Shown here: positions 16,727 to 64,000 of the stretch, piece after piece
Layout: every line of letters starts with the position of its first letter
Numbering within the stretch: the stretch's first letter is position 1
Source: Desulfobacterales bacterium
GTDB taxonomy: Bacteria > Desulfobacterota > Desulfobacteria > Desulfobacterales > SpSt-501
Reading direction: 5' to 3'
DNA length: 64,000 bases
Assembly: GCA_030834695.1 (NCBI GenBank)
Contig: JAUQXK010000097.1
Span: forward strand, 150,823-214,822
Position numbers and translations under genes: made by a program
Notes under the pieces: model-generated
Databases searched by the model: none
What the model was told of the DNA's origin: nothing
Seen by the model: only the letters and a program-made list of their open reading frames with translations

Positions 16727-16847
16727 CCTGGATCATCCTGCTGGTCGCCACGCAACAGACGATCACGAACCTCGTCAGGTCCGGAAGGAAGCAGCGATAA
16801 GTGATGCTGGCTGTGTCGTGGTCCGTCACCGGTCGGGATGATCCAGG
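16727..16847 (+). ncRNA. ffs: Signal recognition particle RNA (4.5S type)
   Basis: The universally conserved apical domain GTCAGGTCCGGAAGGAAGCA is present (16774-16793) with the following GCG. The two ends pair: CCTGGATCATCC (16727-16738) with GGATGATCCAGG (16836-16847), giving a ~121-nt hairpin-shaped RNA typical of bacterial SRP RNA. A possible promoter is TTGAAA (16612-16617) with TATGCT (16634-16639), 16 bp apart, which would give an additional 5' leader. Confidence 0.93.
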
Positions 16848-26757: not shown

Positions 26758-26894
26758 TTGATGGACTCGTAAAAAGTCGTCACTCCGGCGGAAGCCGGAG
26801 TCCAGGCGATTTCTAACTGCCTGTAATTGTATGATTCCGGCTTTCGCCGGAATGACAAAAAACAGCATTTTCAGACTTTTTGTGAGTTCATCAA
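26758..26894. mobile_element. 137-bp MITE-like element
   Basis: Terminal inverted repeats of 21 bp (26758-26778 and 26874-26894, three mismatches, starting TTGATG) enclose two CCGG-containing hairpins of the TCATTCCGGC family. The element occupies most of the zraP-zraS gap upstream of the sigma-54 promoter, where activator sites would be expected. No ORF is present. The remaining part of the gap (26895-27150) is AT-rich with a GGATAC/GTATCC palindrome and no gene. Confidence 0.7.
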
Positions 26895-32082: not shown

Positions 32083-32778
32083 ATGAAGGCCATCGCACCT
32101 ATGTATCGGTTGAACAGATTTCGTCATGCATTGCTGCCGCTGGTTCTCATGGCGGTATGTTTCCATACCACGTTGGCGCGGGCCGCCGAGTCCCTCCCTC
32201 CGCTCGACTACATTCTCAAGGAAGTCGAAAAACGCTACACGGGGTCCCAATTTTCCGCGGATTTTCTCCAGGAGTCCACCATTAAATCCATGGAAATCAC
32301 CGATTTCGCATCCGGCCGGCTGTATGTGCGCTACCCGGGGATGATGCGCTGGGAATACGAAAAGCCCGAACGGCAGGTGATCATCACCGACGGCAAGAAG
32401 CTGTGGATCTTCCGGCCGCAGGACAATCAAGTGATGGTGGGCGGCGCTCCGGTCTTTTTCCGTGACGGCCAGGGCGCCAGTTTTCTGTCGGACATCAGCT
32501 TGGTGCGGAAGAAGTTCAACATTCAGCTGGCGCGGGCGGAAGGCGAGTACCTCTACGAGCTGAAGATGAAGCCGATCGAGGGAGCGGCGAACATCTCCGA
32601 GATCCGCCTCTATGTCGTCCCGCGGTCCTATCAAATCGCGCGGATCGTCACGCTGAACGACTACGGCGATGACACCCGCATCGACATCGTCAGCCCCCAG
32701 TTCAACGCCAATCTCGATCCATCGCTGTTCAGCTTTGAGATCCCGCCGGGCGTCGACGTCCAGAAAATCGAAGAATGA
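32083..32778 (+). CDS. lolA: Outer-membrane lipoprotein carrier LolA
   Basis: A 231-aa periplasmic chaperone that shuttles lipoproteins from LolCDE to the outer membrane. The signal peptide covers about residues 1-33 (hydrophobic LLPLVLMAVCFHTTLARA). The LolA core includes GRLYVRYPGMMRWEYEKPER (about 70-89) and the ending FEIPPGVDVQKIEE, both family hallmarks. The start may be 32083 or the Met at 32101. Its stop codon is embedded in the arm of a long terminator-like hairpin. Confidence 0.9.
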   Translation: MKAIAPMYRLNRFRHALLPLVLMAVCFHTTLARAAESLPPLDYILKEVEKRYTGSQFSADFLQESTIKSMEITDFASGRLYVRYPGMMRWEYEKPERQVIITDGKKLWIFRPQDNQVMVGGAPVFFRDGQGASFLSDISLVRKKFNIQLARAEGEYLYELKMKPIEGAANISEIRLYVVPRSYQIARIVTLNDYGDDTRIDIVSPQFNANLDPSLFSFEIPPGVDVQKIEE

Positions 32779-32899
32779 CGGCCTAAGAAGCCCAATCTCG
32801 GCGTTGCGCTTCGCCCCGCTGCGCTGCGGCGTACCCGATGTACGCCTCGCGCCGCGGGGCTCGCGCGCCTTGAGCTTAGGCTTCTTAGGCCGTCATTCT
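32772..32899 (+). repeat. Long stop-codon hairpin, copy A (lolA end)
   Basis: Perfect 21-bp arms (32772-32792 and 32879-32899) contain the lolA stop codon, and TTTTT follows within two bases on the plus strand. Between the arms lies an 86-bp core (read on the minus strand) similar to the cores of copies C and D: AAGGCGCGCGAGCC, an apical GGCGTAC/GTACGCC stem and GAAGCGCAACGCCG. It probably works as the lolA terminator. The rest of the gene-free gap 32900-32980 shows nothing recognisable. Confidence 0.85.
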
Positions 32900-32980: not shown

Positions 32981-33126
32981 GTAAGAGCCGTTTAAAGCCC
33001 CAGATCACGGCCAAGGGCAAGGCGCCCCGGGGGTTCGAAAGCGCAGCGTACGTCGGTACGTGAGCATTTCGAAATCCGGGGCAACGCAGCAATTGGCCGT
33101 TAGATGGGGCTTTAAACGGCTCTTAC
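32981..33126 (-). repeat. Long stop-codon hairpin, copy B (yebC end)
   Basis: Perfect 22-bp arms (32981-33002 and 33105-33126) contain the yebC stop codon. The core is a divergent relative of copies A, C and D, sharing an apical CGTAC/GTACG stem, AAGGCGC and GCAACGC blocks, with an additional inner stem (GGCC and TTCGAAA segments). On the minus strand the distal arm is followed by CGTTTTATC. Confidence 0.8.
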
Positions 33127-40914: not shown

Positions 40915-41066
40915 GCCGCGTTTTCCTGAAAACGCCCTGGTGAGTGGATCCGGGGGAAGCCCTCCCAGGAAAGCGGGTTTTCGGTGCGCCCACCTATCCC
41001 CCGAAAAAGTTGCGATCTCATCGTTAGCTCTTATCTTTATCCATACACCTGAACAGGAGGTGAAAT

Positions 41067-62083: not shown

Positions 62084-62114
62084 CGCAGTTAGAACAGGTC
62101 TACGCTAAAAATAC

Positions 62115-62241
62115 ACCTGGCTGCGCGAGAGGGCCAGATTCAAGGCGCGCAAGCCTTGCGGAGTGAGGCGTACGTTAAGTACGCCGCAGCGATCGCGAGG
62201 CGCAGCACAACGCCGAAGGTGGCCCTCCCGCGCAGCCAGGT
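62115..62241 (-). repeat. Long stop-codon hairpin, copy C (lpdA end)
   Basis: 22-bp arms (62115-62136 and 62220-62241, one mismatch) end on the last base of the lpdA stop codon. On the minus strand the distal arm is followed by GTATTTTTAG. The core shares with copy D AAGGCGCGC, GCGGAGTGAGGCGTAC, GTACGCCGCAGCG and CAACGCCG. It separates lpdA from the cytochrome gene. Confidence 0.85.
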
Positions 62242-63608
62242 CAGGGGATGTAGATGGCCCAGCCCAGCGCCTCCCGCGCCGCATCCGCCAGTGATTCCGC
62301 AATGGTGGGATGCGGCAGGGCGCAGCGCGCCAGGTCCTCCAGGGTGGCCTCCATCTGGATCGCCAGGGCACCCGCACCGATGATTTCGGTGGCGAACGGC
62401 GCCATGATGTGCACGCCGAGAAGCTCGCCGTATTTCTTTTCGCCCACCACCTTGACCACCCCGCTGCTCACCCCCTGAATCATCGCCATGGGGCTTGCCG
62501 CGATGGCGGCGGTGCCGGCGAGGACCTCGTAGCCGGCCTCCTCGGCTTGCTCTTCACTCAACCCCACCGAGGCAGCCTGCGGGTTCGTGTAGGCCACGCG
62601 CGGAACGCTGTTCGGGTTGAAGGTCCGCTTGGCGCCCAAGGCGTTTTCAGCCGCAATAATTCCCATGGCCGAAGAACGATGGGAGAGGAAAGGCCCCTTG
62701 CCGACGGCATCGCCGACGGCCCAGATGCCGGGAGTTTGAGTGGCGAGGTGCTCGTCCACGCCGAGGTCTTTGAGACCGATCGTATCCAGGCCTAAGTCCG
62801 CAACTGCCGGCTGGCGGTCGAAATAGATCACCCGGTCGAACGGACGCGTCTCCTCCTTGCCTTTGACCAGGAGAACGGCGGACAACCCGTCCTTGTCTTT
62901 GGCCATTGAAACCACCTGGCAGGAGTTGAGGATCGTCAACGGATCGCTCTTGAAGGCGCCGCGCAGGCGCTGTCCGATCTCCGCGTCGAACTCGGGCAGG
63001 ATGCCGCGCTCGCGCGCGGCCACCACCACCTGGCTGCCGCAAACGCCCAGGAATTGGGCGAGCTCCAGCGCCCAGGGGCCGGCCCCCAGGATCAGGCTGC
63101 GGCCCGGGATCTGGCCTTCTTCCAGGAACTGGCTGGAGTTGACGACGCCTTCCAGATCCGCTCCCGGAAACGCCGGGCGGACCCACTGCGCACCCACGGC
63201 CACGATGACGGACCGGGCCTGATAGATCTTGTCCCCCACCGCCACCCGGCCGGGGCCGGCCAGGCGCCCTTTCCCCTTGATGGGAGTTACGCCCTTGGCC
63301 TTCACGAGGCCCTCGGTGCCCATCGAGAAGTACCCCACCAGCTCGTCCTTCATTTTGAAGACTGCGGCGGGGTCAACCACGGCTTCCGCTTTGGAGAAGC
63401 CCATCTTGGCCGCGGTCTGAATGGCCTTGCTTCGGTCCAGGGTGGCCGCAAAGAGCTTGGTAGGCACGCAGGCCCGGTTGAGGCAGAAGCCACCCCAGTG
63501 CGTGCCCTCAACGATGGCCGCCGTGGCCCCGAGCTGGACGCCGCGGATGGCGGCCGCTACCCCGCCCGGCCCCCCGCCGATGACGATGAGATCGAAATTA
63601 TCCGACAT
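62241..63608 (-). CDS. lpdA: Dihydrolipoamide dehydrogenase (E3)
   Basis: 455-aa FAD disulfide oxidoreductase that reoxidises dihydrolipoamide with NAD. The FAD motif is IGGGPGGVAAAIRGVQLG. The redox disulfide is FCLNRACVPTK (the CX4C spacing is kept, although the consensus GGTCLNxGCIPSK is altered). The C-terminal His-Glu dyad is HPTIAESLADA. AGGAAATT precedes the ATG; longer in-frame starts are not supported. It follows E2 on the same strand after a copy D hairpin. Confidence 0.93.
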   Translation of the reverse strand: MSDNFDLIVIGGGPGGVAAAIRGVQLGATAAIVEGTHWGGFCLNRACVPTKLFAATLDRSKAIQTAAKMGFSKAEAVVDPAAVFKMKDELVGYFSMGTEGLVKAKGVTPIKGKGRLAGPGRVAVGDKIYQARSVIVAVGAQWVRPAFPGADLEGVVNSSQFLEEGQIPGRSLILGAGPWALELAQFLGVCGSQVVVAARERGILPEFDAEIGQRLRGAFKSDPLTILNSCQVVSMAKDKDGLSAVLLVKGKEETRPFDRVIYFDRQPAVADLGLDTIGLKDLGVDEHLATQTPGIWAVGDAVGKGPFLSHRSSAMGIIAAENALGAKRTFNPNSVPRVAYTNPQAASVGLSEEQAEEAGYEVLAGTAAIAASPMAMIQGVSSGVVKVVGEKKYGELLGVHIMAPFATEIIGAGALAIQMEATLEDLARCALPHPTIAESLADAAREALGWAIYIP

Positions 63609-63651
63609 AATTTCCTCGCAGGATGGATGAAAAATATAGATTCCCAAGCCG

Positions 63652-63777
63652 ACAGGCTGGTGAGAAATGCCCAGATGCAAGGCGCGCGAGCCTCGCGGAG
63701 TGAGGCGTACTGAAGTACGCCGCAGCGACTGCGAGGTGAAGCGCAACGCCGCAGATGGGCGTTTATCGCCAGCCTGT
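63652..63777 (-). repeat. Long stop-codon hairpin, copy D (E2 end)
   Basis: 22-bp arms (63652-63673 and 63756-63777, three mismatches) end on the last base of the E2 stop codon. The 82-bp core is nearly the same as copy C, while the arms differ completely. A T-run occurs about 20 bases further on the minus strand (TATATTTTTC). Confidence 0.82.
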
Positions 63778-64000
63778 TAAAGCATTAAGCTGGGCTCCTC
63801 GATCATATCCTTGATCGTCTTCAAAAACGCCGCGCCGGGCGCCCCGTCGATGACGCGGTGGTCGAAGGACAGCGACAACGCCATGCGCGGCTCGATGACC
63901 ACCTGGCCGCTTCTGGCGATCGGCTTCTCCACGATGCGGCCCGCTCCCAGGATGGCGCTTTCGGGGTGGTTGACGATCGGGGTGAAGTCGTCGATGTCCC
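63777..64000 (-). CDS. 2-oxoacid dehydrogenase E2 acyltransferase, C-terminal part
   Basis: The window cuts this gene; only the last ~74 residues are visible. They hold the E2 catalytic-domain ending DDFTPIVNHPESAILGAGRI and the active-site motif LSFDHRVIDGAPGAAFL (HxxxDG). This identifies a lipoate acyltransferase of a pyruvate, acetoin or branched-chain complex. The visible part does not say which. It lies just upstream of E3 in the same direction. Confidence 0.9.
   Translation of the reverse strand, partial: DIDDFTPIVNHPESAILGAGRIVEKPIARSGQVVIEPRMALSLSFDHRVIDGAPGAAFLKTIKDMIEEPSLML

Follow-up and report, generated by a model that had tools for sequence, protein, structure and literature searches.

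REPs are tied to RAYT tyrosine transposases and are not known to produce target-site duplications (TSDs). Members of the REP GTAG and CGTC superfamilies are palindromic, lie mostly between unidirectional or convergent genes, not far past where the upstream gene ends, and in the GTAG superfamily the ends of the repeat have been reported often to supply the stop codon TAG (PMC3733652). For the enterobacterial ERIC (RU-1, 127 bp), the passages of PMC2229807 that describe it report an orientation-dependent effect on the upstream mRNA, and the same passages place the targets of YPAL (RU-2) at or adjoining dyad symmetry and describe both repeats as transcribed together with their neighbours. Here, we analyze a palindromic repeat found next to stop codons in a 64,000-nt stretch of a Desulfobacterales genome (contig JAUQXK010000097.1), referred to below as the window.

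Repeat copies in the window

Two copies of the repeat, C and D, lie on the reverse strand, each adjoining the stop codon of a gene on the same strand. Copy C (62115..62240; covariance-model match 62113-62243), for which the sense strand is that of the upstream gene, adjoins the TGA (62241-62243) of a dihydrolipoamide-dehydrogenase-like gene with Pyr_redox_2 and Pyr_redox_dim domains (62241..63608). As defined by the fold, its near arm (62219..62240) is directly 3' of this stop codon and pairs with the far arm (62115..62136), and the conserved core (GCGTTG..GCGGCGTAC..GTACGCCTC..GCGCGCCTTG) occupies 62141..62218. Copy D (63652..63777; covariance-model match 63650-63779) belongs to a sub-group with GATAAA in the arms and adjoins the TAA (63777-63779) of a 2-oxoacid dehydrogenase acyltransferase (E2) gene, of which the window holds only the 3' end (63777..63998). 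Consistent with the original prediction, which was made from the sequence of the window alone, the core is common to both copies (zero occurrences expected by chance), the outer arms, about 21 bp long, are complementary within each copy and the arms end on stop codons. When folded as RNA, C and D are 8–11 SD below shuffled sequences, and either strand yields a strong fold.

Two further copies are found elsewhere in the window. One (32773..32898, forward strand) has the TGA of a LolA gene (32776-32778) inside its near arm. The other is more diverged (32982..33125, reverse strand) and has perfect 21-bp arms that include the TAA stop of the upstream YebC gene (33123-33125) and, on the far side, its complement. 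The same arrangement is seen in loci L075 (TAG) and L416 (TAA), where the arms include the stop and its complement, as though the far arm had been adjusted to fit the stop. At the gathering score, Rfam has no match at any repeat copy in the window; elsewhere in the window, int-alpA RNA (RF02996) is matched at 40935-41004 and a small SRP RNA is found at 16739-16837.

Size of the family and covariation of the arms

A search of the window's own genome with the 75-nt core alone, as suggested by the original prediction, yielded 40 places. Of these, 28 were used to build a covariance model, which recovered about 60 distinct copies, many of which were listed twice, on the opposite strand too, because the element is nearly palindromic. 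The repeat unit is ~125–155 bp: a 125-bp quasi-palindrome which, in the full form, reaches ~155 bp with a 28-nt tail. The full element has the ends TGATGnnnTCGTAAAAAG / CTTTTTACGAnnnCATCA, the latter being the terminus of the tail.

The original prediction regarded the arms of C and D as unrelated, a view that does not hold once the 28 copies are aligned, since the arms are homologous and have a common consensus. The shared arm of the family is TGATGGCTTCGTAAAAAGCCC…, and the arm consensus in gene sense reads TGATGGCTTCGTAAAAAGCCCAATTTCGGCGTTGCGC…GCGCGCCTTGAACTTGGGCTTTTTACGAAGCCATC; copy C retains TGGCT.CG and GGCC of this consensus, and copy D groups with L111, L114 and L115, which have GATAAA in their arms as well. 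The arms of C and D are therefore diverged versions of one shared arm, produced via paired changes. In the outer helix, 95% of positions are paired and 17 of the 19 pairs vary at both partners. Across the structure as a whole, 142 double-change cells are observed compared to 40±6 in shuffles (none of the 500 shuffles reached 142), and the signal collapses in slid controls. One-sided intermediates are rare in the outer helix, which fits strong pairing selection and hairpin-templated correction alike. Orthologous copies also display arms changing pairwise in place (e.g. G-C to T-A at L057, G000 versus G005), not counting a few alignments of this comparison that are out of register.

Some copies are arranged in larger structures. 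L106 (G000:C65:15013-15525) is a head-to-tail array of four copies with a period of ~128 bp, and in L098 and L102 (G000:C134, C17) a different repeat (CAAAGGGGG..GGGGGATT) is joined onto the near side, which points to nested or composite repeats.

Of 148 genomes sampled from Desulfobacterota, 58 have a match to the covariance model, and a sequence match is present in 19 of 40 relatives. Among the matches listed for the core pattern, most come from Desulfobacterota (Desulfosarcina cetonica, Geotalea toluenoxydans, Syntrophaceae, Desulfobulbaceae), with others in Acidobacteriota, Gemmatimonas, Polyangiaceae, Omnitrophota and Methylomirabilota MAGs, where the labels may reflect contamination. As judged by eye, the core in these records is enclosed by several arm types, e.g. 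TA[AG] followed by CAGGCTGCTGAAAAA, and TAGTTTCCRTCCRGAAA. The spread over 58 genomes and the presence of the core in further phyla bear on the annotation of intergenic DNA and of spurious ORFs there.

Empty orthologous sites

In two genus mates (G003 and G004), sites C and D are both empty, with neither arm nor core: the genes finish at the same codon and are followed by a short spacer. In a third genome (G001), site D carries the same core with different arms compared to G000 and G005, and site C holds an internally deleted copy. This deleted copy (L128, G001:C7) is still closed by a perfect 10-bp arm (AATGGCATCG/CGATGCCATT). For further sites, the terminal 130 nt of the preceding gene were traced in six genus mates, with 24 of 26 prepared copies searched, and 46 orthologs at 21 other sites were scored as empty, a few of these being remnants and not truly empty. 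Nearly all of the orthologs scored empty have a native stop (TGA, TAA or TAG) at the insertion point. No traces of arms were detected at the 46 empty orthologs, where similarity to the copy's own arms (6.93) is matched by that to arms of other copies (7.02), and terminator-like signals are found at only four of the 46. The empty sites fold no better than shuffled sequences (-16.5 versus -17.6), indicating that the targets are not hairpins. The possibility that the near arm represents native post-stop sequence, with the far arm as its inverted copy, was rejected, as no similarity extends past the stop codon.

These observations bear directly on the central claim of the original prediction, namely, that at each locus the gene already had a terminator hairpin and a mobile core then entered its loop. 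The idea is understandable when only C and D are compared, because they look alike inside and different outside. Nevertheless, it is contradicted by the homology of arms across copies, by orthologous copies that have the same core and different arms, as at site D, and by empty orthologs, which lack the arms along with the core. Since the arms are missing from the empty sites, pre-existing terminator stems are refuted, and we consider this explanation extremely improbable; the arms are part of the repeat itself. The related suggestion of a hairpin-targeting element fails on the folding of the empty sites, and armless empty sites are the very outcome that the prediction had named as speaking against it.

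Ends, target duplications and the search for a transposase

The terminal inverted repeat (TIR) TGAYGnnnTCGTAAAAAGTC is found at 753 ends in G025, a genome of the same order, and at 40 ends in G000, with none in the reversed control. G025 contains 41 copies that are 97-99% identical, and 18 of the 28 copies for which both flanks are available carry an exact duplication of 4 bp or more (shuffle mean 1.0, maximum 5). Likewise, 16 of 20 tailed copies from four other genomes (G145, G155, G182 and G075) have a 4-bp duplication (shuffle mean 1.6), and in all 16 duplication-bearing copies the N4 is preceded by A and followed by T. In related genomes, the target is thus A-N4-T with a palindromic tendency, TCA-N4-TGA, and the element is inserted right before the T with N4 duplicated. 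A clear TSD is seen in only four of 57 copies of the window's own genome (control mean 0.8, maximum 5), and most of the 57 are old. Locus L414, AAAGGT/TGATGG…CCATCA/AGGT/TAG, consists of an element with the TSD AGGT and a displaced native TAG, so that the TGA of the element occupies the exact place of the native TAG. Copy number varies from 0 to more than 20 per genus mate. Given the TIRs, the 4-bp TSDs and insertion before T, the repeat is a MITE-like mobile element; the short unit, the lack of an encoded protein and the empty sites are likewise features of MITEs.

As for an autonomous partner, no PF01609 or Y1 transposase gene was found to be convincingly flanked by the element ends. PF01609 is absent from G000 and G002. 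Y1 genes are present in all eight genomes, including G004, which has no repeat copies, and most of the Y1-gene loci fetched have no repeat copy on their flanks. Among the Y1 loci fetched, only at L390 (G005:C261) does sequence resembling the element's ends or core lie on either side of the Y1 (RAYT-like) transposase gene. Two TIR pairs, 1.4 and 1.1 kb long, were discarded as transposase candidates, since by eye they enclose a WYL-type regulator and a carbonic-anhydrase-like gene. Another MITE-like element in the window (26759-26893) shares these ends (TGATGGACTCGTAAAAAGTC ... TGATGAACTCACAAAAAG on the opposite strand) and differs inside, where it is based on CCGGC..GAAAGCCGG palindromes; similar elements are found in G000 (C10, C50, C87 and C110).

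Position, polarity and age of copies at stop codons

Of 57 copies in the window's own genome, 44 have a coding-like ORF that terminates at the near end and nine have one at the far end, counting stops from -20 to +15 of the end. In 21 of the 44 the stop is exactly on the first triplet (offset 0), and a few of the near-end ORFs (e.g. L059) may be shadow ORFs. A method based on ORF length gives 47/60 for the near end and 14/60 for the far end. In other lineages, 58 core matches were usable; sense ORFs of 150 aa or longer terminate at the near end (-65 to -51 from the core) in 23 cases, versus about one at the mirror position. In G066, the stop is at the near end in all six copies and at the far end in none.

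In other genomes, young tailed copies are rarely at stops (1/20) compared to tail-less ones (7/9, p=0.0002), a contrast that is partly lineage-dependent, because the tail-less set comes mostly from one genome, G066. Among recent copies of G025, two of 29 are exactly at a stop. Within the window's own genome, copies at stops and copies elsewhere do not differ significantly in tail status (p=0.18). A palindromic target accounts for the phase of the insertions but not for their orientation, from which we infer that copies in one favoured orientation would have been retained after insertion, giving rise to the polarity.

Possible role at mRNA 3' ends and alternative explanations

We lean, by a modest degree, towards a non-autonomous MITE/REP-like palindromic mobile repeat, the settled stop-codon copies of which may have been kept partly for a hairpin effect on the mRNA. 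The element begins with TGA and inserts before a T, duplicating N4; because of this TGA, an insertion before the T of a stop codon leaves the stop at the same codon and is neutral for the protein, as illustrated by L414 and the empty orthologs. Copies at gene 3' ends are associated with the lack of both tail and duplication and with a single orientation. Their outer arms diverge in matched pairs with the core staying conserved, and the copies may be kept, in part, as a strong oriented hairpin right after the stop could act on the mRNA, either by blocking 3' decay or by attenuating read-through. Position, polarity and covariation perhaps point to such a role at mRNA 3' ends. To this extent, the modular 3'-end RNA structure that the original prediction offered as a second option may stand, judging from the position and orientation bias at stop codons, the arm covariation and the paired changes at orthologs. 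We more tentatively suggest that the repeat might be a portable, orientation-constrained mRNA 3'-end module, whose own TGA makes insertion at stop codons protein-neutral and which many genes could take up as a 3'-UTR hairpin, its core conserved across phyla and its outer stem free to change pairwise.

The evidence for a classical terminator is different. The T5 run beyond the far arm of copy C, pointed out in the original prediction, is indeed present on the gene strand (62107..62111, reverse strand), but it does not extend to the family: TTTT occurs no more than 12 nt past the far arm in 4/57 copies, the same as in the mirrored control (4/57), and inside the far arm in 8/57. Since T-tracts are not conserved, a classical terminator role is unsupported for most copies, and the repeat does not have the GC-rich stem followed by a T-tract that defines intrinsic terminators. 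Counts of G-U versus A-C pairs, used to identify the selected strand, are inconsistent between two methods: with an orientation-neutral structure, A-C is in excess in the sense orientation (125 versus 61), and the pairwise method gives opposite signs for the whole element and for the arms.

Two other explanations deserve consideration. A purely selfish MITE, in which the target preference (A-N4-T, TRA) and purifying selection within genes account for the positions and no cellular function is involved, is possible but clearly less probable than partial retention for an mRNA effect; equally tentative is its explanation of arm pairing, namely, that ends must match a transposase or undergo hairpin-templated correction. 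The TSD and target logo, the patchy distribution and the location of recent G025 copies mostly away from stops all agree with this explanation, as does the scarcity of one-sided outer-helix intermediates, which is expected from template-switch correction. On the other hand, a palindromic target predicts no polarity, and the near end is strongly preferred both here and in other lineages; moreover, settled copies vary too widely in their arms for a single transposase. An inherited, non-mobile structured RNA family, whether a 3'-UTR motif or a terminator, could explain the conservation of the core across phyla, the 3'-end position and the covariation. It is nonetheless improbable in view of empty orthologous sites between species, TSDs, bursts of near-identical copies such as that in G025 and the lack of Rfam matches at the window copies.

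The family provides a testable route by which selfish palindromes may reach gene ends, with a TGA-encoding end and a T-starting target replacing the stop and leaving the protein unchanged. The comparison of young tailed and settled tail-less copies separates insertion preference from later retention, an open question for REP-like repeats.

Comparison with known repeats

A literature search by sequence fragments returned only chance matches, and the comparison below is with described systems. IS1272 is a precedent for a mobile element acting on inverted repeats, but it takes the place of the target hairpin and produces no TSD, whereas here the targets are not hairpins and TSDs are present (PMC5678879). 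In the same phylum, the Geobacter multicopy sequences and the Chunjie MITE are palindromic multicopy intergenic families, called predicted RNAs or MITEs in the relevant parts of PMC2700814, PMC2996986 and PMC10969869. The Geobacter central motif, GRCGTAGCGCTGCTACGCC, differs from the core described here, a comparison made by the printed motif only, so that overlap is possible, and Chunjie is 235 bp long versus 125–155 bp here. ERIC and YPAL resemble the repeat in being long imperfect palindromes of similar size with TIRs and a TSD, as described in PMC2229807; ERIC has TA termini and its ends thus differ, as far as can be judged by description only. Neither stop-codon phasing nor paired arm divergence appears in the descriptions of ERIC and YPAL given in those passages.

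The repeat is like REPs (PMC3733652) in palindromy, 3'-end position, a stop supplied by the end and complementary variation of the stem. By contrast, a REP unit is 20–40 bp with a GTAG/CGTC tag, and the unit of 125–155 bp with TGA ends, TIRs and 4-bp TSDs places the present family outside REPs; furthermore, REPs are tied to RAYT, whereas the present repeat flanks hardly any of the sampled Y1 genes. Overall, the layout is that of REP/ERIC-class repeats, and the REP/ERIC/MITE kind being already known, the family is a variant of it.
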